From: a virus
IMG/VR virus record: IMGVR_UViG_3300046321_000323
Span: 1 to 34,732 of that record
Strand: one strand, 5' to 3'
Length of the DNA: 34,732 nt
Both the position numbers and the translations under genes were made by a program. The notes beneath the pieces are model-generated. The model ran no database searches and had not been told where the DNA came from. It saw only the letters and a list, made by a program, of their open reading frames with translations. Shown piece by piece: positions 1,010-33,856 of this stretch (its first letter is position 1; each line of letters starts with the position of its first letter).

Positions 1010-1582
1010 ATGTTTGATTTGGTGCCAGATGATGAATTAAACGCTAAAAAGCGTGAATTCGCTAGGCATTTAATTAAACGTCCAAATGAAGCTTTTAAAG
1101 CAGCTGCTTTTATTTATCCTGATAAAGCTAACACAGGCAATCGATTAATTGTTGCCCATGATTGGCCTGATGACCCAATTGTTATAATGGAAATGGATAG
1201 ATTAGTTTGGGATGATGACGCAAGTAAAGTATTACCCACAAAATCGCAACTTGCATTTGAGGTCTATTCTGTGGGTATGAAAACTTACGATGATGAAGTT
1301 AAAATTAAAGCATTTAAATTATATGCTGATATTCAGGCAATAACACAAGCTGGTCCCGGAATTAATATTAACAACAATAATGGTGTCAAATTAACAACTC
1401 AAAATACAGTAATGCTAGTTAAAGATCATGGCTCTGATAAAGAATGGGAAAATAAATTATCAATTCAACAGCAAAAGTTACTTAATACTGATGTTGATAA
1501 GCCTTTTGAAGATGCTGTAGTTATTGATAACAAACAAGAAGTTATAAAAGAACGAATTAGAGAATTAACAGTTAGAAAATAA
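1010..1582 (+). CDS. terS: Terminase small subunit (probable)
   Basis: This 190-residue protein ends with a TAATG overlap onto the large terminase gene, the standard place for the small subunit. The N-terminal half is helical and resembles TerS DNA-binding regions: a segment around residues 14-40 (FARHLIKRPNEAFKAAAFIY) precedes a helix-turn-helix-like stretch. The C-terminal half has a Gly/Asn-rich patch (GPGININNNNG, near residue 120) followed by charged helices that could serve oligomerisation and large-subunit contact. The small subunit recognises the packaging start on phage DNA and regulates the motor. The call rests on gene order plus general resemblance; no catalytic motif is expected in this family. 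Confidence 0.75.
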   Translation: MFDLVPDDELNAKKREFARHLIKRPNEAFKAAAFIYPDKANTGNRLIVAHDWPDDPIVIMEMDRLVWDDDASKVLPTKSQLAFEVYSVGMKTYDDEVKIKAFKLYADIQAITQAGPGININNNNGVKLTTQNTVMLVKDHGSDKEWENKLSIQQQKLLNTDVDKPFEDAVVIDNKQEVIKERIRELTVRK

Positions 1583-3174
1583 TGCAGCTACTTTCAAGTG
1601 ATCATAAAGTAATATGGAAGCCAATTCCTAATAGTTCTCAAGAGCTAGCTGTAGATACACGTGCACATCACACGCTTTATTGTGGCTCACGTGGCCCTGG
1701 TAAGACTGATACACAGCTAATGCGTTTCCGTAGGCACGTAGGGCAAGGGTACGGCTCTTTCTGGCGTGGTGTTATTTTTGACCGTGAATATAAAAATCTT
1801 GATGACTTGATTGCAAAGTCTAAACGTTGGTTTTATGCTTTTAATGATGGTGCTAAATTTAAAGCTTCTAAAGGTGATTTAACTTGGACTTGGCCAACTG
1901 GTGAAGAATTATTATTCCGTGTTTGTAAATCACCAGATGATTATTTTAATTATCATGGTCAGGAATTCCCATTTATTGGATGGAATGAATTAACTAAATA
2001 CCCAACTTCTGAATTATATGAACAAATGATGAGCACTAACCGTTCATCATTTACACCTGAAAAAGATACACCTGTTAGAAAAATTAAAGGTTGGAATGGT
2101 GGGCCACCAACAATTGATTATGGTTTAGAGCCTGGTTATGAATATGATACTATTGACGGTAAACCTTTAAAATCAATTCCCTTAATGGTATTTTCAACAA
2201 CTAACCCATATGGCGCTGGCCATATTTGGGTTAAACGTCGTTTTATTGATCCGGCACCATATGGCACTATTATTAAATTAGTAACTAATATTCTTAATCC
2301 TAAAACTGGAAAACACGAAGACGTTATAACAACTCAAGTTGCAATATTTGGTGCATTTTTTGAAAATCCATATCTCGATCCTGTTTATGTTGCTGGCTTG
2401 TATAATACTAAAGATGCAAACTTAAGAAAAGCTTGGTTAAAAGGCGATTGGAATGTTGTAGCTGGTGGTATGTTTGACGATTTGTGGAACCAACAAATAC
2501 ACGCCATATTACCACAATTCAAAATACCTAAAACTTGGCATATTGATAGATCGTTTGATTGGGGGTCAACACATCCGTTTAGTGTAGGGTGGTGGGCTGA
2601 AGCAAATGGTGAGGAAGCAATATTACCAGATGGCACTAAATTTTGTCCACCAAAAGGAACTTTAATACAATTCGCCGAATGGTATGGAACTAAAGAATTA
2701 GGTACAAATAAAGGTTTAAGATTATCAGCAAAAGATATTGCTTTGGGAATTCGTGAACGAGAAGATAAACTAATAAAACACGGAATTATAGATAGATACC
2801 CTTCAAGTGGTCCTGCTGATAATCAAATAAGTAATGTTATGGAAATTGAAGTTGATACTATTGAAAAGAAAATGTCAGATCACAAAGTTAATTGGACTAA
2901 ATCGGACAAATCAGCAGGTTCGAGAAAAATAGGAGTTCAATTATTTAGAGATAGGTTGCAAGCATCAGTTGAATTTGAAAATCCTGCTATTTTCTTTACT
3001 AATAATTGTGTAGCTTCAATTTCAACAATACCTATTTTACCAAATGATCCTGTTAAATTAGACGATGTTGACACTACAGCAGAAGACCACCCTTGGGATA
3101 TGGTTAGATATCGTGTATTAGCTTCAAGTAATAGAACTGCGAAAACTATAAAAATAGGTATGCCCACAAGATGA
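1582..3174 (+). CDS. terL: Terminase large subunit (packaging ATPase and nuclease)
   Basis: This 530-residue protein drives DNA into the prohead and cuts the concatemer. The N-terminal ATPase domain has a P-loop GSRGPGKT (residues 35-42, Lys41) and a Walker B-like segment PFIGWNELT (around residues 130-138). The catalytic Glu136 is present, but Asn135 stands where Asp is common. The C-terminal RNase H-like nuclease domain starts with the metal-binding Asp in RSFDWGSTHPF (Asp326) and ends with an acidic DHPWDMVRYR near the C-terminus. Length is normal for the family. It overlaps both neighbours (TAATG from the small subunit, ATGA into the portal gene), indicating a coupled packaging operon. 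Confidence 0.93.
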   Translation: MQLLSSDHKVIWKPIPNSSQELAVDTRAHHTLYCGSRGPGKTDTQLMRFRRHVGQGYGSFWRGVIFDREYKNLDDLIAKSKRWFYAFNDGAKFKASKGDLTWTWPTGEELLFRVCKSPDDYFNYHGQEFPFIGWNELTKYPTSELYEQMMSTNRSSFTPEKDTPVRKIKGWNGGPPTIDYGLEPGYEYDTIDGKPLKSIPLMVFSTTNPYGAGHIWVKRRFIDPAPYGTIIKLVTNILNPKTGKHEDVITTQVAIFGAFFENPYLDPVYVAGLYNTKDANLRKAWLKGDWNVVAGGMFDDLWNQQIHAILPQFKIPKTWHIDRSFDWGSTHPFSVGWWAEANGEEAILPDGTKFCPPKGTLIQFAEWYGTKELGTNKGLRLSAKDIALGIREREDKLIKHGIIDRYPSSGPADNQISNVMEIEVDTIEKKMSDHKVNWTKSDKSAGSRKIGVQLFRDRLQASVEFENPAIFFTNNCVASISTIPILPNDPVKLDDVDTTAEDHPWDMVRYRVLASSNRTAKTIKIGMPTR

Positions 3175-4649: not shown

Positions 4650-4661
4650 GGATTTATTTAA

Positions 4662-5375: not shown

Positions 5376-5380
5376 TTTAA

Positions 5381-7660: not shown

Positions 7661-8112
7661 TGATATTATCACCATTAGAAGCTCGCGATAATATGTTTCA
7701 AATGGTAAACGATATTTTACCTACAATTAACGCTTTATTGACATACAATATTGACGTTCGTTGGCAAAATGTAGCTAATTCAAATAAATTACCAGTTGAT
7801 AAATTATGGTTGCGAGTTTTAAAACAAGAACTAAATGAAGATCGAAAATACGTTTCAACTGCTGACAACACAAATAGAGTTTATACCCACACTGGTATTT
7901 TATCCATAGAAATATTTGGCCCAATTGGTTCACAGACTTCATGGGATTTAATGCAATCATGTGGGCAGTTATTAAGAAATAAATTTAGAGTTCCTAGCTC
8001 AATTGGAATTAAATTTAATAATGTTCGTATTGTTGAAGTTCCTAACGATAGCATTTGGTATAAGCTTAATGTTATTATAAATTATGAATATGATGAACAT
8101 GGAGTTATTTAA
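7660..8112 (+). CDS. Tail terminator (tail completion) protein, probable
   Basis: This 150-residue protein directly precedes the tail tube gene, the standard place for the tail terminator, which caps the tube and joins it to the head. The middle has LWLRVLKQELNEDRKYVSTA and a strand-rich GILSIEIFGPIGSQTSWDLM segment, in keeping with the mixed fold of this group. I chose the ATG at 7660, which overlaps the previous stop (TGATG), rather than the TTG three bases upstream. No motif gives certainty. Confidence 0.65.
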   Translation: MILSPLEARDNMFQMVNDILPTINALLTYNIDVRWQNVANSNKLPVDKLWLRVLKQELNEDRKYVSTADNTNRVYTHTGILSIEIFGPIGSQTSWDLMQSCGQLLRNKFRVPSSIGIKFNNVRIVEVPNDSIWYKLNVIINYEYDEHGVI

Positions 8113-9686: not shown

Positions 9687-9718
9687 AAGCCATGCTCATT
9701 CTGTGGGCATGGCTTTTT
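9687..9718 (+). terminator. Intrinsic terminator or attenuator after the tail tube gene
   Basis: AAGCCATGC (9687-9695) and GCATGGCTT (9707-9715) form a perfect 9-bp stem with an 11-nt loop, followed by TTTTT up to 9718. It lies 21 bases after the tube protein stop. A partial terminator here is common in siphovirus late operons because tube and capsid proteins are needed in larger amounts. One forward TGTGGGCA copy (9702-9709) runs through the loop into the 3' arm. Confidence 0.75.
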
Positions 9719-9719
9719 C

Positions 9720-10979: not shown

Positions 10980-13900
10980 TATTATTGAAATTGAAGTAAC
11001 TGATAAAATTGCATCTACAATTGACCCTAAATTAATTGCCATAACAAAATCAGCACGATCTGCCCACACGGAAGTTGAAAAGTTAACCGATTTATTTAAA
11101 ACATCACCCTCAAATCAACTTTTAAATCAGCTTAATTCACTTTCAATTTCGGAATTAAAATTAGTTACTTCACAGCAACGTTTACAAACTGAATTAGCAA
11201 AAACTAATTTACTTCATACAAAATCAGAATTGCTTATTTATAAAGAATTATCAGCTTTAGATAAATTAGCAGAAAAAGCCAAATCAATCAAGATTGAAGC
11301 TCCAACTAATAATTTAGCTGCTAGTTTGAATAATCAATTTGGTCTGAACTCAGGTGACCCTAGCAAGAGCGCTAAGGATAGCGCGTACGTGTTTACAGAG
11401 CAAGCCCGCGCGGCATCCCAGGCGGCAAAGGAACTCAAGGGGTACCAGACACAAGCCACCGAACTAAAAGGACGCCTAGACCCACTAGCAGGGGCACAAC
11501 GGGCCTACTCAAATCAAGTAGCGCTTGCCGACACACTGTTGCGTAAAAATTTGATCACTGTTGACGAACATTCAAAAGCTAACATTGCTGCTAAAAATAC
11601 ATTGCTTGGCTCGGAGCGGCAAATTAAATCAATGGGTAGTCAATCGCAATTATCAAGTTTTCAATTGCAGAATCTTAGCTATCAGATTAATGATATTGGC
11701 GTTTCTCTATATTCTGGCCAAAAGCCAATGACGGTATTCATTCAACAAGGTTCACAGATTGCGCAAATATTTAGTGGTCAAGGCTTAATTGGTGGATTAA
11801 AAGGTACTGCTAATTATTTAATGTCATTTCTTTCTGTGGGTAAAGTCGCTTTCGGTGGTGTTGCCATTGCTGCAACTAGCACTGCTATTGCTATGTATAA
11901 TTTTTATGAAACACAAAGAACAGTTAATAACACTTTAGGCGGTATCGGCGCTTATGCTGGTATTACAATTCAAAATTTTAATAAAATTGCAGAAAGTGCT
12001 TCTAATGCAGGTAAAGTTTCAAAATCATTCGCCATTGAATTGGGGGATTCTTTAATTCGTGCTGGCAATGCAAGCTCGGCTAACATTGCTGCTAGTATAG
12101 GAATCGTTAAAAATTTAAGTGAAACATTAAAAATAACTAAATCAGAAGGAAGTAAGTTATTATCAGATTTATTTGCCAATCCGACAAATAAAGTTAAAGA
12201 ATTAAATAACCAACTTAATTTTCTTGATGCATCAAGTATGCGTCAGATTAATAATTTAATTGAACAGGGTAATAAACAAGAAGCAATTTCCATTATTCTT
12301 GATAAATTGAATTCTAAAACTTTAGATGCTAGTAAAAGCATGTCTGTATTTTCTCGTTGGTGGGATAATATTAAATTAGGTGCTGATAAGGCAATTCAAG
12401 ATTATTCCAAATTTTTTGATACTGTAATTACTAAAGTTGAAAAAATTAATCGCTTTGATGGTGGTGGTTTACAAAATTTGAGTGTTAATTCTAAAGCAAC
12501 TGAGGCTAATTTTAATAAATTATCAATTGAAGCTCAAGAATTAGTTTCTAAATTTGATACGTTTAATACTTCAGTTAGTGAAAGTAAAAATGGATTAATT
12601 AAATTAGCAGAAGCTACAGAATCACTTAAATCTAAAATTTCTCGTACAAGCGATCCTGCTGAATTACAGCGTTTAAATAATCAACTGGTTAGATTAGGTG
12701 AAACCTCTAAAATATTTGAAAATATGGAAGCTAGTTTAAATAAATACGGTAATGCTGAAAGTCGTTTAAGTGCTACGCAAGATTTAGCAATTAAATCTAT
12801 TAATGCACGTACAACTACTGAACGTGCAAGTTTAGCTATGCAACAATCATTGATTAATTCTGCTGGTCAAAATATTACTGCAACACAAGCACAATCTGCT
12901 GCAATGCATGAAGCTAATAAAATTAGACTTGAAGCTGCAAAAACACGCTCTGATGAATTATATGCAATAGATAGGGAAATTGCGTTAATTGGGATTGTAG
13001 GAACAAAAAGACAAATCGAAGAACAAGTTTTGCAGAAAGAATTAGCCGCTAGAAGTTCAGGTAATGCATTATCTGAAAAGGAAATTGCTTTAGATCGTGC
13101 TAAAATTACAATTAAAGAACAGGGAGTTTTAGCCGATGCTGCTAGAAATACTATTTACAATGAAACTATAGGTAAGGTACAATCTTTAAATTATCAACTT
13201 TTAGCAACTAATGAAGCTTATTCCAAAGGTATTTTGAATGCAGAAAACTATGGAATTAGTTTAAATAAACTTGGTTTAGAAACTGCTAATTTAAAATTAC
13301 AATATGGTAATGGAAATTTTGTTGATATTGCTAATACTTCATTAGGTAAATTAGTTTCAAATTATCAAGGTGTTTTACCTGGTTTATCTTCTAGTTTTGG
13401 TAATTTCTTTCAAACTGTAAGTGACGGATTTGCTAATAGTATAGGAGACGCTATTGTTAAAGCTAAAGATTTAAAAACCGCATTACATGATGTTGCACAA
13501 ACTGCAATTTCAGGTTTAATAAGTTCTTTGGTTAAGCTTGGTATTCAATATTTAGTTAATACTGCGTTAGGTCAAACAATGGCAGCAGCTGCAAACGCGT
13601 CAACAATAGCGCAAGCTTCTGCGGTAGCCGCCGCATGGGCACCAGCGGCGGCGGGTGCTTCACTCGCAACGTCTGGTACAAACAGCGTACCGGCAACAGC
13701 TGGCATGACTGCTGCTTACGCTGCTAGTGCTGCTTTAGCTGCTGCAAAACCATTCGCTACAGGTGGTTTAGTAACTGGTCCTGGTACCAGCACTAGCGAT
13801 AGCATTCTAGCCAAATTGAGTAATGGTGAATTTGTTATAAACGCAAAAGCTGCTAATGATAATAAAGGTTTATTGAGTGCCTTGAATGCTGGTCAAAATA

Positions 13901-20217: not shown

Positions 20218-20628
20218 AATTGATTTATAATAAATAGAGTAAGCTCTCATAAAATCATCAATAGAAATATCGGAAGCGGAATAAACCCCGCTTCCAGCAA
20301 TAGCTACATAAGTCATTGTTCGCACTCGCCATGGTTGACGACTAGCACGATAAATCAGAACTGGCATTAGGCCATGCTTGGCTTGCGCAAGAGTTTGTTG
20401 CCACCAAGGCCCTAGCTGCACAACCTCTTGACGCTTAATCTCAATGGCTAAGCCCGGTATGCCCACAAGATCATATCCGCCTCTGTCACTCTGCAACGTG
20501 TTCCGCTTCACTTCCTCAGAATGACCTTTTTTCCAAAGCTCTTTTTCAATCGCAGACATTAAATCAATAAACATATCTGCGATTTCACGTTCGCCGCGTT
20601 TTCCTTTATTTCTTGCAGTCTTTGACAT
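20212..20628 (-). CDS. PD-(D/E)XK endonuclease, resolvase-like
   Basis: This 138-residue protein has the small resolvase-type PD-(D/E)XK layout: GKRGEREIADMF near the N-terminus with the first acidic residue, GGYDLVGIPGLAIEIKRQ with Asp and the Glu-x-Lys pair around residues 51-66, then QTLAQAKHGLMPVLIYR. It resembles Holliday-junction resolvase or RecU/VRR-like phage nucleases that resolve branched DNA before packaging. It is the last gene of the leftward operon. Its stop shares the palindrome TTATAA with the stop of the convergent tail spike gene. AGGA precedes the ATG. The gene is visibly richer in G+C than its neighbours. Confidence 0.82.
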   Translation of the reverse strand: MSKTARNKGKRGEREIADMFIDLMSAIEKELWKKGHSEEVKRNTLQSDRGGYDLVGIPGLAIEIKRQEVVQLGPWWQQTLAQAKHGLMPVLIYRASRQPWRVRTMTYVAIAGSGVYSASDISIDDFMRAYSIYYKSIL

Positions 20629-21020: not shown

Positions 21021-22967
21021 TCAAAATAGTTTTAGTTTTTTGTAATAGCCGATATCTTCTAATATTTTTAATGAAATAGATATATAACGATCATAATCAA
21101 TAGATAAATCAGCCAACGATTTTGGTAAATCCATAAGCGGTAATGCCCCATCTGATTTAGGAACTTTGTTGCCAGATAAAACATAATTAATTTCTCCAAA
21201 CTCATTGTGGGCATAATACCAACGTACAACTTTTCCTAAGTATTGTCCATTTTTTTCACCGCCACCTTTAACATTGCGAACACAAACAAATTTAGTAATA
21301 TCTTGGCAATTTTTTATAGTTTTTTCAATTGGAATTTGTTTAGTTAAAAACTCACATACTGCTTCAACGCATATAGTAGCGTCAGGGTTTTTATGAAATC
21401 TAAAACTTGCTAATTTTTTATCATTCCATGGATTAGAATATGCACCTTTTGTTTTACATGATCCATCCAATTTAACAGCAATATAATTGTTAACATCACG
21501 ACTATAAACAGCTTTATACTGTGTTTCTTCAGTTTTGAAATTTGTTTCATATTCCCATTGTCTAATAATTGCATTCAAATCATCAACTCTAAGTTTAGGA
21601 CATTTAATAACTATACCATCTGTGTTTGCACTAACAACTTGAATTCCTGCAATTTCAATTCTTTCAATCAACATCAAAAGTGAAAGTTGGCCGGTAATAG
21701 TCACTTGCAATAGTAATTGCGGTGAATACAAACTAGAATACATTGAACCAAATTTACCAAAGCTCCCATTAATCGTAATTTTTAAGCTATCTGCAACAAC
21801 AGTGTTTTTAGCTGCTTTAGCCGCAATTCGACGTTCTGTAATTGCATTAAAAACTGTCAAAAATGAATTACTCAAATGTGCAGGGTATAAACCTTGATTA
21901 ATAATAATGCGAGGATAGTAGCTTTCTACATCCCTATCAATTAAAACAAAATTGTCGTCAGCTATATGTGAAACGCATTCTTCACTAGAATGCAAACCCC
22001 CAATACCCAAACGGTATATACTAGAGCCGATCCTAATATCCAAATCTTTAATTTGCTGTGGTAATATTGGCGATCCGTTGTTCTCAAGTGTAAACGCATT
22101 TCTTGATATGATATCCAAAGCATTGCATAAGATGGGATGTGTGAAACTAACGTAATTAGGAACATTATAATGGTAAGTTTCATTAAAATTTACTTTCGGC
22201 TTCTTAGGTCTAAAACCACGAATTTTAGCAATTTCTGATATGATCACTGTTTCTGCAATCTGTGCATCTGATTTAGAGCGTAAATCTTGCCCATAATCAT
22301 CAGACATAGTTGTTCGTAATGCAATTTGATCTTTAAGATTATCATAAATGAGTTGTGTATTTGAAAGATCATTGCAACAATAATAACGAATTTGTGTTTT
22401 TTGCTCTTCTGTTAATAATGCATCAGGCTCAATAGGTAAATCTTGCATACGTTTAGCGTGTAATCGTCCTGCATATGTCTTTAGTGATGCTGATAATGGG
22501 CATACTTCAATCAAATCAATATGATTGAAAGAAATTAATTTAACTTCAAGTTCTTTTGCAATGTCGCGATGTTTTTCACTAAACTTAATTAATCGATCTG
22601 AAATTATTTTTAAATCATTTGTTGAATACATTTCTAATGCACAAGAAATCATTAAATGATCGTAATTAATTGAATTAAATCCAATCAAACAAAATTTATT
22701 TAATATCCACAGTAATTTATTAATTTGAAAATCTAATTTATAATCTTCTAATTCAAAACTAATTATTTTACCTGTATCAATATGTCTAAACCCAATAAAC
22801 CAAAAATTAAAATAACATTCAGTGTCAAATACAAACTTATCACCATAAGGCAATGTTAATAATTCCGCATCTGACATAAAGTCAATTGGATCAAAAACAG
22901 CATGTTCAACATGCTGTTTAAGTTTAATTACCTTAGTTCTTTTTTTCTTCACATCGTCAAAAAACAT
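21021..22967 (-). CDS. Family B DNA polymerase with 3'-5' exonuclease
   Basis: This 648-residue protein is the phage replicative polymerase. The exonuclease domain has Exo I FVFDTE (Asp48, Glu50), Exo II GFNSINYD (Asn98, Asp103) and Exo III YCCND (Tyr196, Asp200). The polymerase domain has motif A DVESYYPR (Asp346), motif B KITINGSFGKFG (Lys396, Asn400) and motif C SANTDG (Asp450). In motif C the first Asp of the usual DTD is Asn448, while the essential second Asp is kept. The length is short for the family. It lies with a clamp gene and two small genes, in overlap with the upstream frame (TAATG). No sign of terminal-protein priming is seen. Confidence 0.9.
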   Translation of the reverse strand: MFFDDVKKKRTKVIKLKQHVEHAVFDPIDFMSDAELLTLPYGDKFVFDTECYFNFWFIGFRHIDTGKIISFELEDYKLDFQINKLLWILNKFCLIGFNSINYDHLMISCALEMYSTNDLKIISDRLIKFSEKHRDIAKELEVKLISFNHIDLIEVCPLSASLKTYAGRLHAKRMQDLPIEPDALLTEEQKTQIRYYCCNDLSNTQLIYDNLKDQIALRTTMSDDYGQDLRSKSDAQIAETVIISEIAKIRGFRPKKPKVNFNETYHYNVPNYVSFTHPILCNALDIISRNAFTLENNGSPILPQQIKDLDIRIGSSIYRLGIGGLHSSEECVSHIADDNFVLIDRDVESYYPRIIINQGLYPAHLSNSFLTVFNAITERRIAAKAAKNTVVADSLKITINGSFGKFGSMYSSLYSPQLLLQVTITGQLSLLMLIERIEIAGIQVVSANTDGIVIKCPKLRVDDLNAIIRQWEYETNFKTEETQYKAVYSRDVNNYIAVKLDGSCKTKGAYSNPWNDKKLASFRFHKNPDATICVEAVCEFLTKQIPIEKTIKNCQDITKFVCVRNVKGGGEKNGQYLGKVVRWYYAHNEFGEINYVLSGNKVPKSDGALPLMDLPKSLADLSIDYDRYISISLKILEDIGYYKKLKLF

Positions 22968-23149
22968 TATGATTTTCCAACCAATGGTTCCGATATTTCA
23001 GAATAAACTTGACCTTTACTATAAGTTAATTTTTCAGTCTCAATAAAAATTAAACGTTGATGGTCATAACAATCTTTAATGGTATAATCAAAACCATTTA
23101 GTGCCTTATAAACTACTTTAGCTTTAACCTTTAATTTATCGATTGACAT
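22967..23149 (-). CDS. Small hypothetical protein (60 aa) between clamp and polymerase
   Basis: It starts inside the end of the clamp gene (19-base overlap) with GAGGT seven bases ahead of the ATG, and stops in a TAATG overlap with the polymerase. The 60-residue product starts MSIDKLKVKAKVVYKALNGF and looks like a small beta-barrel or hairpin protein with charged surface. No motif is recognised. Its translation is probably coupled to both neighbours, so a polymerase-associated role is possible but unproven. Confidence 0.6.
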   Translation of the reverse strand: MSIDKLKVKAKVVYKALNGFDYTIKDCYDHQRLIFIETEKLTYSKGQVYSEISEPLVGKS

Positions 23150-24120
23150 ATAATACCTCTTATGTTTTTTCCATAAAACAAAGCTACTTTATTTGTGTCA
23201 CTACAAAAATCAATTGTTTCAATGTAAGGTAGAACAGATGCTAATTTAGCTGAATTAAATATACCAGTTTGGTCGCATTTTATATCAAAACTTGCAGATA
23301 ATTCGGCTTTCTTGTGGGTATTAATTGCTTCATTGCCAACAATGATATTTATTTCTGCAAATTCAAATAAATTATTAATAGCTTCTTTAAAACCAATAGG
23401 TAATTGTTTTTGTTCAGTTTGTCTATCAAACATTGGAATTAAGTTAGGCCATTTGTCTTGGTATAGTTGCGTTTTAATCCAAGCTTTGTTTTCAAAGTGA
23501 ATTGTTAATGAATTATCACTAAAGCCAAATGCAACAATGCCAAATTTGATTTTACTAAGCAAAGTAATAAATGTTTTAGGAATTACAAGCTCAGGAAAAT
23601 TAATTCCATGCCAATATTCAACTGCAACAATTCTATCGGTTGAAAATACGCTTTGACCTTTGCATAATACACTAGACATTTCGACGCTTGAGCCTGTTTC
23701 TACTGCCCATTGCCCGACAAAATCAAGTGCAGTCCGAAAGTCATTGCTCAGTAAGCCACAAATGGGGTCAGGTTGGCCGCTGGCGAGCAAATCCAAAGGA
23801 TAGCAGGCAATTGGCACTTTGAGCTTGCCGCCCTGTACAGTCAATTTTGAACCGTCCTGCGCTATGCTGTATGCACCATCGATCCTATGTAGCGCGGCAA
23901 GCAAGCGCTTACTCTGCACACATGCTGACAAATCCCCTTGCACTGGATGACCTAAAGTTACAATTCCATTAAACGTGGTCACTTGTTGATCTTCAAATAA
24001 ACAAGCAACTTCTAATGGTGTCCCTGTATCTTTTTGATTTAGACAAACAAATTCAAGAGCTTGAATTAGATCAGATTTTGCTTCAAGTTCTTTTTTTGCA
24101 ACTTTAGGTTTACGTGCCAT
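23131..24120 (-). CDS. DNA polymerase sliding clamp, DnaN-like
   Basis: This 329-residue protein resembles phage beta-clamp homologues. It has GIVTLGHPVQGDLSACVQSK near residues 52-71, followed by LLAALHRIDG and LTVQGGKLKVPIACYP, typical of the first clamp domain. The C-terminal part repeats strand-rich patterns and ends with VALFYGKNIRGII. The clamp would encircle DNA and tether the polymerase encoded just downstream. I take MARKPKVAKKE (ATG at 24120) as the start; an ATG at 24144 is in frame, and neither has a clear ribosome site, so coupling to the upstream gene is likely. The segment near 23760-23940 is about half G+C against one third in the flanks. Confidence 0.72.
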   Translation of the reverse strand: MARKPKVAKKELEAKSDLIQALEFVCLNQKDTGTPLEVACLFEDQQVTTFNGIVTLGHPVQGDLSACVQSKRLLAALHRIDGAYSIAQDGSKLTVQGGKLKVPIACYPLDLLASGQPDPICGLLSNDFRTALDFVGQWAVETGSSVEMSSVLCKGQSVFSTDRIVAVEYWHGINFPELVIPKTFITLLSKIKFGIVAFGFSDNSLTIHFENKAWIKTQLYQDKWPNLIPMFDRQTEQKQLPIGFKEAINNLFEFAEINIIVGNEAINTHKKAELSASFDIKCDQTGIFNSAKLASVLPYIETIDFCSDTNKVALFYGKNIRGIICQSIN

Positions 24121-24295
24121 TATTAATTTGCTTTTTAATATCATCTAAACTATTTGTTATAGCAAAAGCTATACCGTCATTTGTTATGATGGTAACGTTA
24201 CTAACGATATCAATACTAAAAAGTTTTATAGAATTAATATTTACATAAACATCACCAATCTCATTTATAAGCTGTACGCAAATAAAACTTTTCAT
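24110..24295 (-). CDS. Small hypothetical protein (61 aa), FlbD-like pattern
   Basis: AAAGGA lies seven bases before the ATG and the stop overlaps the clamp start. The 61-residue product is a series of short strands ending in a helix: IGDVYVNINSIKLFSID, then VTIITNDGIAFAITNSLDDI. The order 'v.vN...I..i......i...dG..f.v..sl..i' recalls small FlbD-type proteins, also found in phages, but this is a weak resemblance. The function is unknown. Confidence 0.6.
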   Translation of the reverse strand: MKSFICVQLINEIGDVYVNINSIKLFSIDIVSNVTIITNDGIAFAITNSLDDIKKQINNGT

Positions 24296-24306: not shown

Positions 24307-24525
24307 TCAAAATGGTATCATATCAACATGATTATCACAACCTAAAGCAATAATTCTAGCAGGCGGCCTTGCTTTATGAATTTTGCACATTTCTGATTTT
24401 TCATCAAATTCAGAACAATTAATGCAAGTGCGAGTTGCGCTAAGCAAATGATGCTTAATAATTGCTGAAATTTCTTGTGTCATGCCATGAACAGTTGCAA
24501 CTCTATCATTAATTTTAGTACTCAT
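24307..24525 (-). CDS. Small cysteine-rich protein, possible zinc binder
   Basis: The gene starts inside the end of the helicase gene (11-base overlap) with GGAG about eleven bases ahead. The 72-residue product has a helical N-terminus and then CINC, EMCKIH and ALGCD, four cysteines spaced C-x2-C-x9-C-x16-C that could hold a zinc ion. The C-terminal tail HVDMIPF is hydrophobic. Similar small zinc-ribbon proteins accompany phage replication genes. The role is not known. Confidence 0.65.
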   Translation of the reverse strand: MSTKINDRVATVHGMTQEISAIIKHHLLSATRTCINCSEFDEKSEMCKIHKARPPARIIALGCDNHVDMIPF

Positions 24526-26119
24526 AAGACAAAATCTCCGGATATTTTTTATTTAACCAAACTTTAATTCTAGTTGGTGTTAGTAATTCATTTATTTTAT
24601 TCATTGCTTTATCTGTTGCTGTTCCAAATTCATCAGGTTCAGGTGGTGTATAGCCGTGACGCGTTCGCCACCAATTATTAGCCTTATGTTTAGGATAACC
24701 AGAATGATCTAAACAAACCCATTCAACAAATTGTCTAACGCCACACATATATGTAACTTTAATCATAGGTTTTTTATTTTCATTACCTTCTTGTTTATTA
24801 TAAATTACTCGCGTAACATCAAACATTTCCGTAACTGGTATTTCTTCAACCATTAAAGGTTGTGTTGATGCCGTGTCTTGAATTTTAACTTCAAAAGTAA
24901 ATTCATTTCCACATTTAATACAATGAGTTGCTTTAGTGTGATTGTAAGTATTGCAAGCTAAACATAATTTAGCAGGTGCAACACCTTTAGCTTTACCTTT
25001 AGCTTTTGGAATTCTAGGGTCATTAATTGGACCCAATGACATTGTATTTCCTGCAAAATCTAACACCAAACAATCGTTTTTACCTTCACATGGCCTTGTG
25101 CCACGTCCTAACATCTGCACCCATAAACCCGGTGAAGTTGTAGGACGTAACATAACAATTAAATCAATTGGTGGATGATCAAATCCAGTTGTTAAAATAT
25201 TATTGTTAACTAAACAACGCAACTTGCCGAATTTAAAATCTTTAATATATCTATCGCGTTGCTCATTAGTGCAGCGTTTTGTGTCACCATGAACTGCAGC
25301 TGTTGCAATTCCCATTGCGTTTAATTGTTCTGATATATGTTCAGCATGATCAACACCAGACGCAAATACTAACCACGAACGTCTATCGTAACCAGCTTCT
25401 AAAACTTCCTTTAATGCAGCTTGTGTTACTTCGTTTTTGTCAACAGCAGCTTGCAATTCACCAAGATTATATTCACCACCTGTTATCTTAACATCACTAA
25501 TATCTAATTTAGTTTTAGTTGGTTTTGGATATAATGGCGATAAATAACCTTCACGAATTAGTCGATTAAATGCTTCAATACCTGTAATATCATAGCAAGT
25601 ATGAGTAAAAACACCGTCGTTTGTAATTAAACCTTGACCCATTCGAAATTGCGTTGCAGTTAATGCAACAAATCGAATGTTAGGATTAATTTGTTTTAAC
25701 ACTTTAAAACTTTTAACGTAACTTGTATTTTCTTTAGGGCTAACTCTATGTGCCTCATCAATAAAACAAACATCGCGATGGCCAAATTCTTCAATATTAT
25801 TAACTGAACTTCCGATGCTGCCAAAAATAATAGGGTGCATTGTATCGCGACGCTTTAAACCGGCACAATTAATACCTAATGGAGCACCTGCCCACATATC
25901 AGTTAATTTATTCGCATTTTGTTCTACAAGTTCTTTAACATGCGTTAACATTGCAAAACGCGTTCTCGGATAATATCTAATGCATTGGGTAATTGCACCT
26001 GCAATAACAACTGATTTTCCTGTTCCTGTGGGCATGGCTACTACTGGATGACCACTAGTGTTCATCAAGTCATTAAAGATACTATCAATAGCATCTTGTT
26101 GATAGTATCTCGGGGTCAT
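24515..26119 (-). CDS. Superfamily 2 DNA helicase, RadD-like
   Basis: This 534-residue protein has all main SF2 motifs: motif I MPTGTGKS (Lys35), motif II IDEAHR (Asp121-His124), motif III LTAT, and motif VI QMLGRGTRP. A zinc-ribbon insert, CLACNTYNHTKATHCIKCG, sits after the second RecA fold, followed by a C-terminal domain with WWRTRHGYTPPEP. This order of helicase core, zinc ribbon and WW-type tail fits RadD/YejH-like enzymes, which act in double-strand break and replication fork repair. It could unwind or remodel replication intermediates together with the phage polymerase. Cys spacing of the ribbon is 2-9-2. Confidence 0.88.
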   Translation of the reverse strand: MTPRYYQQDAIDSIFNDLMNTSGHPVVAMPTGTGKSVVIAGAITQCIRYYPRTRFAMLTHVKELVEQNANKLTDMWAGAPLGINCAGLKRRDTMHPIIFGSIGSSVNNIEEFGHRDVCFIDEAHRVSPKENTSYVKSFKVLKQINPNIRFVALTATQFRMGQGLITNDGVFTHTCYDITGIEAFNRLIREGYLSPLYPKPTKTKLDISDVKITGGEYNLGELQAAVDKNEVTQAALKEVLEAGYDRRSWLVFASGVDHAEHISEQLNAMGIATAAVHGDTKRCTNEQRDRYIKDFKFGKLRCLVNNNILTTGFDHPPIDLIVMLRPTTSPGLWVQMLGRGTRPCEGKNDCLVLDFAGNTMSLGPINDPRIPKAKGKAKGVAPAKLCLACNTYNHTKATHCIKCGNEFTFEVKIQDTASTQPLMVEEIPVTEMFDVTRVIYNKQEGNENKKPMIKVTYMCGVRQFVEWVCLDHSGYPKHKANNWWRTRHGYTPPEPDEFGTATDKAMNKINELLTPTRIKVWLNKKYPEILSYEY

Positions 26120-26134: not shown

Positions 26135-26308
26135 TTAAATTAATTTTTTAAAATGATGTATTCCGCCAAAACAAATAAGTTTTAATTCACCATCTTTATA
26201 AACAATCCAAAATTCAAGATCGTTTTTGGCTTCTTTTAAAATTGTAACTGTTTCTATTTCATCTGCGACATACCAAGTCCCATAACCAATAATTGGTAAT
26301 TTTATCAT
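26135..26308 (-). CDS. Small hypothetical protein (57 aa) between nuclease and helicase
   Basis: Its ATG (26308-26306) overlaps the stop of the upstream nuclease gene (ATGA) and its frame fills most of the gap before the helicase gene. The 57-residue product begins MIKLPIIGYGTWYVADEIET and ends GGIHHFKKLI, with an alternating hydrophobic pattern and one Cys. No family recognised. The stop-start overlap and lack of any other explanation for the gap support a real gene. Confidence 0.6.
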   Translation of the reverse strand: MIKLPIIGYGTWYVADEIETVTILKEAKNDLEFWIVYKDGELKLICFGGIHHFKKLI

Positions 26309-27156
26309 TTAACAGGTTCCCATTTATCACAACCATTTTTAATAAATTCGTTCGGAATAACTGAATTATATTCTTCACAGAACCATTGTTTATCTTCAAT
26401 AGGTTTTGCTTTCCAGCAAGAGCGGCAATTTTTCTCAGGCGGTACATTGTCCCAACAAACACCAGACATATCGCACATTTTACAAGCTAAGTAGTTTTTG
26501 CTACTTGCTACTCGATTTGGAGCTTGCCTTGACCTAATAATCTTTTCAGCAAGTTCAATTTTTCTATCAGCTAAAGCATGATCAAGTTTAACAATTTCAA
26601 TATGCATATCGTCATTATTTTTATTAACTACAATGTAAATAGCATATTGAATATCATAAAATCGCCCATAGACACACATTTGATCATAATGAACAGGTTC
26701 TTCAAACTTAACGCCATTTTTTACAATATTATTAAAATCAGCGCCATGTTTTTTAGTTTTAAACTCACATAGTAGTTTTTCATTAACATTTAGATCAGGC
26801 GGCAAAAATGCAGTTCCATCAAGAGAACCGCCAAAATGTCCCATAACTGCCGATAAACGCTGTTGCTTACCGTTTTCTAAAACATCAGTTACATTAAAAC
26901 CAATACCACGTAAATATTCAAGAAATTTAGCTTCCTCACGATGACCGCGATTAAATAGTCTATATTGCTTTCCACTAAATACTTTATTATAAACCCAACG
27001 ATAATGGTACCAAATATAACGATGGCATTCATTACCAATAATAGATGCACCTAAGTGATTTCTTGGGCCTTCTGAATATATTTTAACACAATAAGCATCA
27101 ATTCTTTTTTGAATTTCTTCTGCCAATTGCTTTCTAAATAATGGATTATCTAACAT
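26305..27156 (-). CDS. Cas4/RecB-like PD-(D/E)XK nuclease with probable Fe-S cluster
   Basis: The start MLDNPLF at 27156 has GAGGTT just upstream; longer frames would run back through the terminator at 27170-27200. The 283-residue protein has HLGASIIGNECHRYIWYHYR near the N-terminus, GGSLDGTAFLPP with the first Asp, and LLCEFKTKKH with the Glu-x-Lys pair. HYDQMCVYGRFY follows, typical of the RecB/Cas4 family. One Cys in the N-terminal part and ACKMCDMSGVC (C-x2-C-x5-C) near the end match the cysteines that hold a 4Fe-4S cluster in Cas4 and AddB. Four further cysteines follow at the C-terminus. It probably resects DNA ends for annealing by the adjacent recombination proteins. No CRISPR genes or arrays accompany it. 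Confidence 0.85.
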   Translation of the reverse strand: MLDNPLFRKQLAEEIQKRIDAYCVKIYSEGPRNHLGASIIGNECHRYIWYHYRWVYNKVFSGKQYRLFNRGHREEAKFLEYLRGIGFNVTDVLENGKQQRLSAVMGHFGGSLDGTAFLPPDLNVNEKLLCEFKTKKHGADFNNIVKNGVKFEEPVHYDQMCVYGRFYDIQYAIYIVVNKNNDDMHIEIVKLDHALADRKIELAEKIIRSRQAPNRVASSKNYLACKMCDMSGVCWDNVPPEKNCRSCWKAKPIEDKQWFCEEYNSVIPNEFIKNGCDKWEPVK

Positions 27157-27169
27157 TATAACCTCAATA

Positions 27170-27200
27170 TTAAAACAGGGGCAATTTGCCCCTGTTTTAA
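27170..27200. terminator. Long hairpin terminator, functional on either strand
   Basis: TTAAAACAGGGGCAA (27170-27184) and TTGCCCCTGTTTTAA (27186-27200) form an almost uninterrupted inverted repeat. The stem is flanked by A-runs on one side and T-runs on the other, so it can act as an intrinsic terminator in both directions. It lies between the ssDNA-binding-type gene and the nuclease gene in the leftward operon and would reduce expression of the genes below. Confidence 0.8.
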
Positions 27201-27208
27201 TAATACGT

Positions 27209-27913
27209 TTATTTAGATTGTGCCCACGGTGGTCGCTGATCGGCACTTGGCTGTTGAACCCATGCCTGCACGGGTGCTGCTGCTACTGGCTGTTGTGGAG
27301 CCTGTGGCCATGCCTGCACGGGTGCTGCTGCTACTGGCTGTTGTGGAGCCTGTGGCCATGCCTGCACGGGTGCTGCTGCTACTGGCTGTTGTGGAGCCTG
27401 TGGCCATGCCTGCACGGGTGCTGCTGCTACTGGCTGTTGTGGAGCAAACCCACTAACACCAGAATTAATTGATGATCCGGTCTGCCCCAAAGACTGTGAA
27501 CCGTCGTCTTTAGTAATTAATTTAATTTCATTACTAACAATGTCACCCTTATCACCTTTATCAGTTTTAATAACAAGTTTAACAACAAAAGGAATATTGC
27601 GGAAGTTATTAAAATCAGCAAGCGAACTCAAAATAAATACGCCTGTTGCATGGCAAATGGACGAAAGTTGCTTTTGTGCAATTTCAACAGCTTTTTCATT
27701 TGGATTCCAAAGATTGAGACGATAAAAAATTGAACGTCCTTTAAATTCACCCTCTGCAATATTAATTTTTAGTGCAACAAAACCACCGTCACCTTTAGCG
27801 GTAGGTTTAATTTCATGACTTTCAATAATAGCTTTATAAAAACCTTCAGGGATTGGCTCATAAGCAGTCATTGGTGCAATATTGTGAGCATTAAAAGAAA
27901 AATTAACATTCAT
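27209..27913 (-). CDS. DUF669-type ssDNA-binding protein with repeat tail
   Basis: The N-terminal domain (about residues 1-135) has the DUF669 pattern: PIPEGFYKAIIESHEIKPTA, then GGFVALKINIAEGEFKGR and FYRLNLWNPN. That fits phage proteins placed next to Sak4-type recombinases and thought to bind single-stranded DNA. The C-terminal third is a low-complexity tail of four near-identical 16-residue repeats (PQQPVAAAPVQAWPQA) and an end QRPPWAQSK. A flexible tail with a conserved tip is usual for single-strand binding proteins, where it recruits partners. The tail is encoded by a 48-bp minisatellite with G+C far above the genome. AAGGA lies nine bases before the ATG. Confidence 0.78.
   Translation of the reverse strand: MNVNFSFNAHNIAPMTAYEPIPEGFYKAIIESHEIKPTAKGDGGFVALKINIAEGEFKGRSIFYRLNLWNPNEKAVEIAQKQLSSICHATGVFILSSLADFNNFRNIPFVVKLVIKTDKGDKGDIVSNEIKLITKDDGSQSLGQTGSSINSGVSGFAPQQPVAAAPVQAWPQAPQQPVAAAPVQAWPQAPQQPVAAAPVQAWPQAPQQPVAAAPVQAWVQQPSADQRPPWAQSK
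27261..27444 (-). repeat. 48-bp minisatellite, about four copies, in the ssDNA-binding-type gene
   Basis: Units start at 27261, 27309, 27357 and 27405. The 40-base core is identical in all four, and the complete 48-bp unit is identical in the inner copies. Each unit encodes 16 residues rich in Pro, Gln, Ala and one Trp. All six reading frames stay unusually open because the unit is free of stops in several of them, so short frames on the plus strand here are shadows. Identical copies in a phage imply recent or ongoing expansion. Confidence 0.93.
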
Positions 27914-29139: not shown

Positions 29140-29143
29140 TAAT

Positions 29144-29269: not shown

Positions 29270-29346
29270 TAAATACTCCTATTTTAAAGGTTTACCGTCT
29301 ACATATACCTTTTGAATGCTCTTTTAAATCGACGTGAGCAAATAAA

Positions 29347-30108: not shown

Positions 30109-30348
30109 ATGCAACGATTAACAAAGATTAAGAAAAGGTTAAGGAAACCAAGACAAGGTTCTGCTATGAAAGATATTGCTTTAAAATTATTAATTGATAG
30201 ACCTAGAAATATTACTTATTTAGACATAGCTAATGAAACCGGAATAACAGTTTCTTGGCTTAGATTATTTGCTAGAAATAAAATTGATGAACCTGGTCTT
30301 TCAAAAATAGAAAGGCTTACGAATTATTTGAAAGCAGTTACAAAATGA
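30109..30348 (+). CDS. Small helix-turn-helix protein
   Basis: The 79-residue product has an N-terminal basic arm (about residues 1-15, RLTKIKKRLRKPRQG). A Cro-like HTH follows: IALKLLIDRPRNITYLDIAN, then ETGITVSWLRLFARNK and a final helix LSKIERLTNYLKAV. The arm is optional: the ATG at 30166 has AAGG eight bases upstream and would give 60 residues. It is the first gene after the early promoter and may regulate the divergent control region. Its stop overlaps the primase-helicase start (ATGA). The target sites are unknown. Confidence 0.75.
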   Translation: MQRLTKIKKRLRKPRQGSAMKDIALKLLIDRPRNITYLDIANETGITVSWLRLFARNKIDEPGLSKIERLTNYLKAVTK

Positions 30349-32633
30349 TTAATAATATTCCAGATGAATTAAAAGCTTTCAATCAATTTGTATGCTGGAA
30401 GTTAGAAGAACGGGACAACTCTAATAAGCCAACAAAAATCCCATATTGCCCACATACAGGACGCATGGCTAGCGTGACTGACCCTAATACATGGGGCAGT
30501 TTTGATGATGCATTAGCATCGTGTGAACTAATCGAGTATTCTGGAATTGGATTTGTATTAACGGAAAAAGACCCTTTTACATTTATTGATTTGGACACAA
30601 CTTCAAACCAAATTGATTATCAACGTCAAATAGATATTTTTAATAAATTTGATAGTTATTCTGAAATTAGCCCTAGCGGTAAAGGTCTGCATATTATTGT
30701 TAAGGGGTTAGTAAAAAGTGGTCGACGTAGAAGTTCTGTTGAAATTTACTCATCAGAACGCTATATGACTATGACAGGTAACATTTATAATAATAAACCA
30801 ATATCTGCAAAGCAAGAGTTATTAGATATTCTGTGGGCAGAAATGGGTAAAGGCTCTAAATATATAGCTTATGATGGTAATGCAGAGCAAAAACATTCAG
30901 ATATTGAAATTATTGAAATGGCATGTAATGCAGTAAATGGTGATAAATTTAAATTACTTTTAACAGAAGAATGGAAAACGTTATATAATTCAGATCAATC
31001 TGCTGCTGATTTTGCATTTATTGATATTATTGCCTTTTATACTCAAAATAAAGAACAAATAATAAGAATATTTCACTCTAGCATTTTAGGTAAAAGACCT
31101 AAAGCAAAACGAATTGATTATTTAAATACTATGGTTAATAAAGCTTTTGATAAGCAATTACCTATGGTTAATTTAGATATGATTAATAATGAAATTAAAC
31201 AAATGGAAGCTGTAACTAAAGTTAAAAAAATAAAAGTTGATCGTGTTGTTTCTAATGAAATTGATGTAGGTTATAAGGTCACATTTCCAAAAGGATTAGT
31301 TGGTGACATTGCTAATTATATTTATAGCTCAAGTTATCGCCCTGTTCCAGAAATAGCCCTAGCTGGTGCCCTTGCAATGATGGCAGGTATAACGGGGCGT
31401 GCCTATAATGTAAGTGATCAAGGTTTAAATCTTTATATTCTTTTGCTTGCTAAAACTGGTCGCGGTAAAGAAGCGATGGCCAATAAAACAACAGAATTAA
31501 TGAATTATATTTCTAAATCTATTCCATCAGCAAGGGACTTTATTGGTCCTGGTGATTATGCATCTGGTCAAGGTTTGACTCGTTATATGAGTAATAACCC
31601 ACTTGGTTGTGCATTCTCAATTGCTGGTGAATTTGGTTTAAAAATGCAAGCTTTATCTGATCCAAGGGCAAGCCCTGCTGATTTAGGTATAAAAAGAATG
31701 CTTTTAGATTTGTTTCATAAAAGTGGTAAAAATAATTCATATAAACCCGTTGCTTATTCAGATAAAGAAAAAAATACTAAAGAACTTATATCTCCAGCAT
31801 TAACAATACTAGGCGAAAGTACACCAAGTTCTCTTTATGATAATCTTAGTGAAGAAAGTGTAACTAGCGGTTTATTGCCTCGATTTTTAACAATCGAATA
31901 TCTTGGTGATAGAGTCGATCCTAATTTAAATCATCAGTTGATAAAGCCAAGTCCTGAATTATTACAACACTTATTATCAGTAGTAAGTTGCTCATTAACA
32001 TTAACTCATGGTAATATTGTTAATGATGTTAGATTATCACCGGAAGCAAATGATCTAAGTGTGAAATTCGATGCTTTTTGTACTAAAAATATTAATGAAA
32101 GTAATAACGATGCAATAGGGGAACTTTGGAATCGTTCGCATATTAAAGCATTGCGGGTAGCTGCTTTAGTTGCTGTTGGTGTAAATGAAAATTTCCCAAT
32201 TATTGACCAAGAAGCAATGCAATGGGCAATTGATTTAATAACTGCCGATACCAAACGCGTTTGTTGGAGATTTGAAAAGGGCAAAATTGGTCGCCCTAAT
32301 GACGATAATGCTCAAATTGATACAATGAGCAAGGCAATTAAAGATTATATTATAAAGCCATATAAAGACTGCGCATATAAATATGATAAAAGTAAAAGTG
32401 GTGAAGACTTATATAATAATAAATTGTTAACGTATGTATATTTATCTAGAAAATTAATTTCTACCGCTGCATTTAAAAATGATAAGCTTGGGGCAACTGT
32501 TGCGATTAAACGTTGTCTTCAATCTATGATTGATATTGGTTTAATTGCAGAAGTTCCTAAACATCAATGTAAAATTTTAGGTACATCTGGACGCTTATTT
32601 ACATTATTGGATCATGAGCTGTTGGGGAATTAG
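30345..32633 (+). CDS. Primase-helicase: AEP-type N-terminus and DUF3987-type ATPase
   Basis: This 762-residue protein appears to join two activities. The N-terminal 150 residues have AEP primase-polymerase features: FTFIDLDTT with the Asp82-x-Asp84 pair, SPSGKGLHIIVKG with the conserved His116, and RSSVEIYSSERYMTMTGN with Glu133. The C-terminal region has VGDIANYIYSSSYRPVPEIA, then a P-loop-like AKTGRGKEA (Lys375) where Glu replaces Ser/Thr, as is usual in DUF3987 proteins. It probably primes replication and unwinds DNA at the fork with the phage polymerase and clamp. It is the central replication gene of the rightward operon and starts in an ATGA overlap with the HTH gene. Confidence 0.8.
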   Translation: MINNIPDELKAFNQFVCWKLEERDNSNKPTKIPYCPHTGRMASVTDPNTWGSFDDALASCELIEYSGIGFVLTEKDPFTFIDLDTTSNQIDYQRQIDIFNKFDSYSEISPSGKGLHIIVKGLVKSGRRRSSVEIYSSERYMTMTGNIYNNKPISAKQELLDILWAEMGKGSKYIAYDGNAEQKHSDIEIIEMACNAVNGDKFKLLLTEEWKTLYNSDQSAADFAFIDIIAFYTQNKEQIIRIFHSSILGKRPKAKRIDYLNTMVNKAFDKQLPMVNLDMINNEIKQMEAVTKVKKIKVDRVVSNEIDVGYKVTFPKGLVGDIANYIYSSSYRPVPEIALAGALAMMAGITGRAYNVSDQGLNLYILLLAKTGRGKEAMANKTTELMNYISKSIPSARDFIGPGDYASGQGLTRYMSNNPLGCAFSIAGEFGLKMQALSDPRASPADLGIKRMLLDLFHKSGKNNSYKPVAYSDKEKNTKELISPALTILGESTPSSLYDNLSEESVTSGLLPRFLTIEYLGDRVDPNLNHQLIKPSPELLQHLLSVVSCSLTLTHGNIVNDVRLSPEANDLSVKFDAFCTKNINESNNDAIGELWNRSHIKALRVAALVAVGVNENFPIIDQEAMQWAIDLITADTKRVCWRFEKGKIGRPNDDNAQIDTMSKAIKDYIIKPYKDCAYKYDKSKSGEDLYNNKLLTYVYLSRKLISTAAFKNDKLGATVAIKRCLQSMIDIGLIAEVPKHQCKILGTSGRLFTLLDHELLGN

Positions 32634-32634
32634 A

Positions 32635-32856
32635 ATGACAAGTGAATATAAATATAAAGAACGTAAAATTGTTCTTAGTTGGCATATTGCAATAAATGAT
32701 TGGTGCGCGTATTTTTACGATACTGCCGATGAAGGTATGAAAGCCGGTTGGTCTGATACTGAAATTGGAGCCATTAAAGAACTGTTTGAGCTTGAAGGAT
32801 TAGACTTAAATGATAGTAACGGAATTTCACAACTTACCAAAATTTATAAACCCTGA
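32635..32856 (+). CDS. Small hypothetical protein (73 aa) upstream of the ligase
   Basis: I chose the ATG at 32635, with GGGGA seven bases ahead and directly after the primase-helicase stop; an ATG at 32614 lies inside that gene. The product begins MTSEYKYKERKIVLSWHIAI and has an acidic helical middle (GWSDTEIGAIKELFELEG). It overlaps the ligase start by 47 bases in another frame. No family is recognised. Confidence 0.6.
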   Translation: MTSEYKYKERKIVLSWHIAINDWCAYFYDTADEGMKAGWSDTEIGAIKELFELEGLDLNDSNGISQLTKIYKP

Positions 32857-33856
32857 TTATGCATATTCAGCTTACTTTACTGAGAATGATATTTATTACT
32901 GTCATGGTAAAACTAAAGAAATAGCAATAGAAAACTTAATAGTAAAATACGGTGCCCACAGAATGACTAAGAAACTTGAAGTTATGCTATCTGGTAAATG
33001 CCCTAAAAATTTAAATGCTATTAAGTACCCCGTTCTAGTTTCACCAAAACTTGATGGTATTAGATGTATTATTTTAAATGGAAAAGCTTATTCTAGAACA
33101 CTTAAATTAATTCCTAATCTTTTTGTTCAAAATTTTATGCAATCAATGCCTAATGGTTTAGATGGTGAACTTATTGTAGGCGATCCTGTTAATTCTGATG
33201 TTTTTAACATTACTCAATCTGGAATTATGACTATTTCTGGTGAGCCTAATTTTAAATTTTATGTATTTGATAAACAAGGTTGTGGGTCAGGTTTTGAAAG
33301 CAGATTTCATCAAGCAAATTTATCTGTAAATACCCATACTACAACTTATCGTGAGTTTAACAGAGTTGAAATCGTTCGTCATTTTAGAATAGATAACGCT
33401 GAACAATTACAGGAATGCGCTAATTATTATGTTGGTTTAGGTTATGAGGGGGTTATGGTAAGGTCATTAAATGGGCCTTACAAATTTGGTCGCTCAACTG
33501 AAAAAGAAGGTTATTTGCTTAAATATAAACCTTTTCAGGATGCAGACGCAATTATTATTGGAGTTGAAGAACTTATGCACAATAATAATGAAGCGATTAA
33601 AGATGAGTTTGGGCGAACTAAGCGAAGTTCACATAAAGCCAATTTAATTTCAACTAATACTATGGGTGCTTTAAATTGCCAGCTTGAAAATGGAATTGAA
33701 TTTGATATTGGAACTGGATTTACTGATAAAATGCGGGCTGATCTGTGGGCAGACAAAACTAATTTAATTGGGCAAAAAATTAAATTTAAATATCAAAATC
33801 TAACTGCAAAAAGTAAACCTAGATTGCCTGTATTTTTAGGTTTTAGAAAAGATTAA
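32810..33856 (+). CDS. ATP-dependent DNA ligase
   Basis: This 348-residue protein has ligase motif I SPKLDGIRC with the adenylated Lys80, motif III FKFYVFDK, motif IV GYEGVMVRS and motif V LLKYKPF. A C-terminal OB-like region follows, with FDIGTGFTDKMRADLW and IGQKIKFKYQN. It seals nicks and Okazaki fragments for phage replication. The first 50 residues (NPDYAYSAYFTENDIYYCHG) are not part of the ligase core. A second ATG at 32964 would remove them, so the start is uncertain although the upstream ATG has AGGA about 12 bases ahead. It is the last gene of the rightward early operon. Confidence 0.9.
   Translation: MIVTEFHNLPKFINPDYAYSAYFTENDIYYCHGKTKEIAIENLIVKYGAHRMTKKLEVMLSGKCPKNLNAIKYPVLVSPKLDGIRCIILNGKAYSRTLKLIPNLFVQNFMQSMPNGLDGELIVGDPVNSDVFNITQSGIMTISGEPNFKFYVFDKQGCGSGFESRFHQANLSVNTHTTTYREFNRVEIVRHFRIDNAEQLQECANYYVGLGYEGVMVRSLNGPYKFGRSTEKEGYLLKYKPFQDADAIIIGVEELMHNNNEAIKDEFGRTKRSSHKANLISTNTMGALNCQLENGIEFDIGTGFTDKMRADLWADKTNLIGQKIKFKYQNLTAKSKPRLPVFLGFRKD

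Follow-up and report, generated by a model that had tools for sequence, protein, structure and literature searches.

Strand-specific series of eight-base words in a lytic siphovirus-like phage and its relatives as probable priming sites of an NrS-1-type primase-polymerase

The window analysed here is a whole IMG/VR virus record (IMGVR_UViG_3300046321_000323, 34,732 bases), which comes from a lytic siphovirus-like phage and is probably incomplete at its ends. Its late genes lie on the plus strand and its replication module occupies 20-34 kb. Scattered along it is the eight-base word TGTGGGYA, which raises the question of what reads this word and how its placement on both strands is to be understood. 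The words are very likely single-strand template sites where the phage's own NrS-1-type primase-polymerase (PrimPol) starts primers, and the sites are probably genome-wide, strand-specific priming sites that serve as lagging-strand start points. We infer that PrimPol reads the word, at which exact base it starts, and that the starts belong to the lagging strand (Okazaki starts) rather than, for example, to replication restart; the link to the primase draws on association, homology and the published specificity of a relative.

The initial annotation of this sequence had listed 22 exact copies of the word, and our count agrees in number, position and orientation (1233-33751; 12 forward, 10 reverse). 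Its expectation of about one copy holds as well, with dinucleotide shuffles giving a mean of 1.30 and a maximum of 5 (100 shuffles). Codon use, which it had also dismissed, is ruled out by synonymous-codon shuffles, which yield 3.3 copies on average and 9 at most (500 shuffles). As described, the copies sit in differing genes and frames: 21 of the 22 are intragenic, covering all three frames and both gene strands, with the word on the coding strand in 10 cases and on the template strand in 11. TGTGGGCA accounts for 16 sites and is the window's most over-represented 8-mer. The sites are listed below, with their state in L009, a relative of 74% DNA identity, where it applies.

1233..1240, minus strand, site TGTGGGTA
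1270..1277, plus strand, site TGTGGGTA
3161..3168, minus strand, site TGTGGGCA, missing from L009
3518..3525, plus strand, site TGTGGGCA, kept in L009 with diverged flanks
7884..7891, minus strand, site TGTGGGTA, kept in L009
7960..7967, plus strand, site TGTGGGCA, kept in L009 with diverged flanks
9702..9709, plus strand, site TGTGGGCA, intergenic, in the 3' arm of a terminator-like hairpin AAGCCATGC...GCATGGCTTTTT (window 9690-9720)
11061..11068, minus strand, site TGTGGGCA
11835..11842, plus strand, site TGTGGGTA
15618..15625, minus strand, site TGTGGGCA
15671..15678, plus strand, site TGTGGGCA
17313..17320, minus strand, site TGTGGGTA
17510..17517, plus strand, site TGTGGGCA
20460..20467, minus strand, site TGTGGGCA
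21206..21213, plus strand, site TGTGGGCA
23313..23320, plus strand, site TGTGGGTA
25889..25896, minus strand, site TGTGGGCA
26027..26034, plus strand, site TGTGGGCA
30447..30454, minus strand, site TGTGGGCA, within the PrimPol gene
30832..30839, plus strand, site TGTGGGCA, within the PrimPol gene
32953..32960, minus strand, site TGTGGGCA
33744..33751, plus strand, site TGTGGGCA

Spacing of the sites on the two strands

The distribution of the 8-mers is strand-specific, each strand carrying its own evenly spaced series. In 20 related genomes, and with expected pair counts that assume uniform site placement, sites on the same strand exclude one another: there is no pair closer than 200 bp, against an expectation of 37, and only 29 pairs fall within 1 kb where 186 would be expected. 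Opposite-strand pairs within 1 kb number 178, precisely the expected figure. The pattern recurs in a second set of 12 further genomes, in which the word was picked by enrichment: 25 same-strand pairs fall within 1 kb against 128 expected, and 126 opposite-strand pairs against 122. Other over-represented 8-mers of the same genomes instead cluster on one strand (6219 vs 2273). Gaps within a strand are much more regular than chance would give, with coefficients of variation of 0.27-0.58 in most genomes compared with about 0.9 for random placement; PSV3, shaaii, VCLv21 and G013 are exceptions. Neighbouring sites on a strand lie a median of about 2.5 kb apart, and most genomes tested carry some 15-56 sites along both strands. 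The late-gene strand is richer in sites (343 vs 223, p 5e-7), and the local coding strand is slightly favoured too, the two effects not being separated.

The initial annotation had read the window as a succession of inverted pairs. Both the orientation order and the pair distances of 37 to 791 bases were confirmed, and its probability of 1 in 10,000 is correct under random order (66/646,646). When one strand is slid against the other with spacing kept, however, the 19 alternations of the window compare with a null mean of 16.6 (p 0.145). The minus-plus order thus results from two independent even series, one per strand, overlaid on each other, and alternation is not the primary feature. The initial annotation had named a lack of enrichment and of alternation in related phages as grounds for giving up its reading, and this is not what they show: alternation lies above orientation permutation in most of them, and enrichment of the word is present in all close relatives.

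Facing pairs are not supported as a general rule, since opposite-strand positions are independent of each other, and it is very unlikely that the minus-plus pairs function as such. In their favour, the close minus-plus gaps of the window average 355 bp against 1350 expected (p 0.001 by rotation), an unexplained effect in one of 20 genomes; G013 gives p 0.010, and the pair at 7884/7960 is kept in L009. The 18 other genomes show no such effect, several of them lean the opposite way (phage 73, NP1), and the p value is weak given 20 genomes and two gap types.

A further possibility is that the sites bind a double-strand DNA-binding protein, as stoperators, as targets of a DNA organiser or as sites of the small HTH-like protein encoded before PrimPol. 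A small HTH-like gene does lie directly upstream of PrimPol in many relatives. Such binding predicts exclusion whatever the orientation, but only same-strand copies exclude one another, and nearly all window sites are intragenic on both gene strands; we therefore give this reading very little credence. The stoperators of mycobacteriophage L5 are likewise numerous, asymmetric and scattered over a single phage genome. They are bound by a repressor, lie mostly in short intergenic stretches and are oriented with transcription, whereas the window sites are intragenic, occur in both orientations and came with no identified repressor. The independent placement of opposite-strand copies counts equally against modification-type double-strand sites. 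The claim that something recognises the sites stands, and from the list of roles offered with it 'primase signals' is retained, while operators or stoperators and double-strand modification sites are not supported.

Comparison with L009 bears on how the series is maintained. Three of four sites are kept, two of them with diverged flanks, compared with 13% for random 8-mers, and two additional sites occur in L009 but not in the window. Individual sites therefore turn over while the spacing persists. The spacing appears to be preserved by selection, as if copying-restart positions were written into the genome.

Association of the words with the phage replication genes

The replication genes of the window are the following.

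30345..32633, plus strand, PrimPol, an NrS-1-type primase-polymerase and proposed site reader (PHROG 3022; NrS-1 PrimPol homology)
30109..30348, plus strand, small HTH-like protein directly upstream of PrimPol (weak, sub-cut-off Pfam HTH matches)
21021..22967, minus strand, family B type DNA polymerase (PHROG 1252)
23131..24144, minus strand, polymerase processivity factor, clamp-like (PHROG 947)
24515..26119, minus strand, RadD-like SF2 helicase
26305..27246, minus strand, Cas4-domain exonuclease (PHROG 1990)
27209..27913, minus strand, single-strand DNA-binding protein (SSB; PHROG 6015)
32810..33856, plus strand, ATP-dependent DNA ligase (PHROG 114; absent from most relatives tested)

Relatives of the HTH-like protein are annotated as HTH DNA-binding proteins. 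Of the named phages in the collection, those closest to the window, with a portal or polymerase about 48-54% identical, are Septimatrevirus (Pseudomonas phage 73), Erwinia AH03, E. coli FtMidnight, Klebsiella Kmi2C, Paracoccus R3 and Variovorax BAPIC_0004; a megablast of the window DNA against phages gave no match.

With the over-representation of 8-mers ranked under an order-2 Markov model, TGTGGGCA is the top-ranked word of AH03, FtMidnight, phage 73, R3, BAPIC, PSV3, KL1, IMEAB3, ctUnS216 and others. These phages range from 33% to 56% G+C, and their hosts belong to three classes of Proteobacteria. PrimPol and motif occur together in the window, AH03, FtMidnight, phage 73, KL1, R3, Kmi2C, Loki, IMEAB3, ctUnS216 and others, and the motif is absent where only structural genes or the polymerase are shared (Axy06, PMBT14, VLCpiS6a, STP03, TheodorHerzl, Vibrio 1.094). 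Among 65 contigs of at least 12 kb selected by a window-type PrimPol protein alone, not all of them independent (L277 and L279, for example, have identical PrimPols), TGTGGGCA is the rank-1 8-mer in 28 and among the top 10 in most. The association also holds in reverse, as scattered-type motif-rich contigs found by the motif alone (G012, G013, G015, L041) encode PrimPol. In G013, PrimPol, Cas4, the HTH protein and the motif are present, and homologues of the polymerase, clamp, helicase, SSB and Sak4 were not detected.

The word itself varies among PrimPol-bearing phages. Its 5' part is kept and mainly its 3' part is altered, by phage clade and not by host; TGTGGG is almost fixed, and the final two positions of the motif vary more freely. 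Among more distant relatives, the Queuovirinae NP1, JenP2 and Greed have TGTGGTCA or TGTGGTTA as rank-1 8-mer; these two words also lead in Vid5 and Vibrio 2.117, the leading word reaching 23-48 copies across the five. Inspected over their full length, PrimPol contigs without TGTGGGCA mostly have another TGTGG word near or at rank 1 (TTGTGGGG, TGTGGTCA, TGTGGCCA) or TGTAGGCA, of which one contig carries 22 copies. E. coli phages differ in their word, with TGTGGGCA in FtMidnight, TGTGGTTA in Greed and TGTGGTCA in JenP2. Since the word differs among phages of the same host, the reading factor is encoded by the phage and not by the host.

Two other determinants were considered and rejected. A host factor is at odds with a word that differs within one host and is common to alpha-, beta- and gammaproteobacterial hosts. 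As for the phage polymerase, Vibrio 1.094 has it and lacks both PrimPol and motif, and R3 has no match to the window polymerase query and nevertheless carries 26 copies of TGTGGGCA.

Another reading is a Chi-like role, in which the words are oriented signals for a phage recombination or resection enzyme (the Cas4 exonuclease together with the SF2 helicase) and their even spacing lets a broken end encounter a site from either side. Chi sites are short words that recur along a genome more often than expected, with a strand orientation, and they act in one orientation. Action in one orientation would fit the strand-specific even spacing, and most motif-bearing contigs encode Cas4, the helicase, SSB and a Sak4-like ATPase. 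The Chi sites of RecBCD/AddAB are read by a recombination enzyme, whereas the helicase here is RadD-like and the proteins searched included nothing resembling RecBCD or AddAB; G013 carries the motif with no detected homologue of helicase, SSB or Sak4; and the core of the word matches published PrimPol recognition sequences. We consider a Chi-like signal quite unlikely, and a host RecBCD/AddAB-type enzyme is an unlikely reader given that the word varies by phage clade and not by host.

It is extremely improbable that the words are recognised by an enzyme that nicks or modifies one strand at a specific sequence. Strand-specific action and the DNA ligase of the window would suit such an enzyme, but no nickase or methyltransferase candidate common to the motif-bearing phages was found, and most relatives that carry the motif lack the ligase.

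PrimPol and a proposed priming mechanism

The N-terminus of the window PrimPol matches the NrS-1 primase in sequence (E 4e-29), and residues 1-273 of the predicted model align with NrS-1 N300 at Z 21.5, with 36% identity over 241 residues. The root-mean-square deviation is large (10-17 Å), which suggests that the domain arrangement differs in the model. Residues 316-647 have a predicted MCM-like AAA+ helicase fold (Z 17.7), and the helix-bundle region scores 27.5 bits against Pfam NrS1-1_pol-like_HBD, slightly under the 27.9 cut-off. AEP motif I (DxD) and motif II (SxGxGxH) are present, with D82, D84, S111, G114 and H116 invariant among 19 homologues. Among 28 closer PrimPol homologues, P110, G112 and L115 are likewise invariant, as is the Ser-Pro-Ser loop S109-P110-S111; in NrS-1, the loop S108-P109-S110 replaces a zinc motif (PMC8718748). 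In most Queuovirinae homologues, the middle residue of this loop is R.

In bacterial genome contigs, the helicase half and the primase half of PrimPol occur apart from each other (L325, L326, L329, L335, L337 versus L331-L334, L338), which suggests domain swapping; both sets show mild TGTGGGCA enrichment. In G031, G032, G034, G036, G048 and G055, the PrimPol query aligns as two adjacent stretches of a single open frame joined by a non-aligning linker.

The specificity of characterised relatives resembles the words found here. NrS-1 PrimPol requires the 8-nt template word 5'-TTTGGTTA (PMC8718748, PMC7102993), recognises 5'-GTGG/GTGA more strongly and starts mainly at the first base upstream, and the pRN1 PrimPol requires GTG in its template (PMC8718748). 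The 8-mers fit this primase-family specificity, with a GTGG core as in NrS-1, and TGTGGTTA is one base off TTTGGTTA.

We propose that 5'-TGTGGGYA-3' would be exposed as a single strand, mainly as lagging-strand template, and that the helix-bundle domain of PrimPol would recognise the GTGG core. The start point would be the conserved T before GTG or lie just 5' of it; synthesis would run toward the 5' side of the template, and the phage polymerase and clamp would extend the primer; the ligase could join lagging-strand pieces. Each strand would then require a separate series, with a site every few kilobases. Selection may require only enough sites per strand, with redundant close copies decaying, which would produce same-strand exclusion. 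A template read as a single strand would lead to per-strand spacing without interaction between the strands, as seen.

Like NrS-1, the window has a homologous PrimPol with a helix-bundle, a predicted AAA+ C-terminus that may likewise form a ring, and a word of the same length with nearly the same letters. Unlike in NrS-1, whose one or two long sites are proposed as an origin, the sites here form series along both strands, and the replication module adds a separate family B polymerase and clamp. The archaeal plasmid protein pRN1 ORF904, which is among the fold matches (3m1m), is likewise a helix-bundle PrimPol that recognises GTG; its motif is three bases long, its sequence is distant, and a genome-wide spaced series is not reported for it in the literature checked. 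Phage T7 gp4 joins primase to helicase, as the window PrimPol does, and uses short template signals for lagging-strand primers, but it is an unrelated TOPRIM-type primase, and its signal is much shorter and very frequent.

Several observations weigh against PrimPol as the reader or against priming as the role. PrimPol is accompanied in most contigs by Cas4, SSB, a Sak4-like ATPase and the HTH gene, so genetic association alone does not single out PrimPol. Comparison of homologue columns gave no helix-bundle residues that convincingly explain TGTGGG versus TGTGGT versus TGTAGG. G040 has 28 copies of TGTGGTCA, and PrimPol was not found in this possibly incomplete record. For the divergent homologues 9NA and JCL1032, a comb of sites is not clearly seen, and about one third of PrimPol records, mostly short contigs, are without a clear motif under the cut-offs used. 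NrS-1 itself lacks such a series, with one exact TTTGGTTA in its record, where its authors count two sites (PMC7102993). The close minus-plus gaps of the window, described above, belong here as well.

We think it reasonably likely that a broad group of lytic phages uses preset, evenly spaced, strand-specific lagging-strand starts, with Okazaki boundaries fixed by sequence, selected across 30-60 kb and re-specified when the primase word changes. Text searches of partial literature found no earlier description of the motif. If the priming reading holds, NrS-1-type PrimPols, known but poorly understood, would be tied to a readable genome-wide site map, and primase specificity would become predictable from sequence for hundreds of uncultured phages. 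Lagging-strand initiation would be testable at defined positions, as every site predicts a nascent-strand start. The strand-exclusion statistic offers a simple route to other primase or strand-acting signals.

Further occurrences and minor features

Two binned PrimPol contigs suggest that the system reaches other bacterial groups: L330 (Verrucomicrobiales) carries 17 copies of TGTGGTCA and L323 (Rhodospirillales) 8 copies of TGTGGCCA.

A different arrangement occurs in contigs without a detected window-like PrimPol, where 5-11 copies of TGTGGGCA form a single cluster within a few hundred bases, often at 9 bp spacing and in mirrored groups (L196:15644-16013, L197:15353-15735, L034, L091, L109, L116, L136, L026, L062, L084, L106, L111, L042). 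The cluster of L196 lies near a clamp-like gene and a terminase. Such clusters are possibly an origin or a regulatory array.

Phage 73 has a head-morphogenesis gene between its portal and scaffold genes, and this gene is apparently absent from the window (4649-5381). The C-terminal part of the SSB gene (27218-27472) holds four tandem repeats of about AAPVQAWPQAPQQPV, which account for the enrichment of the 12-mer CACCCGTGCAGG in the window.

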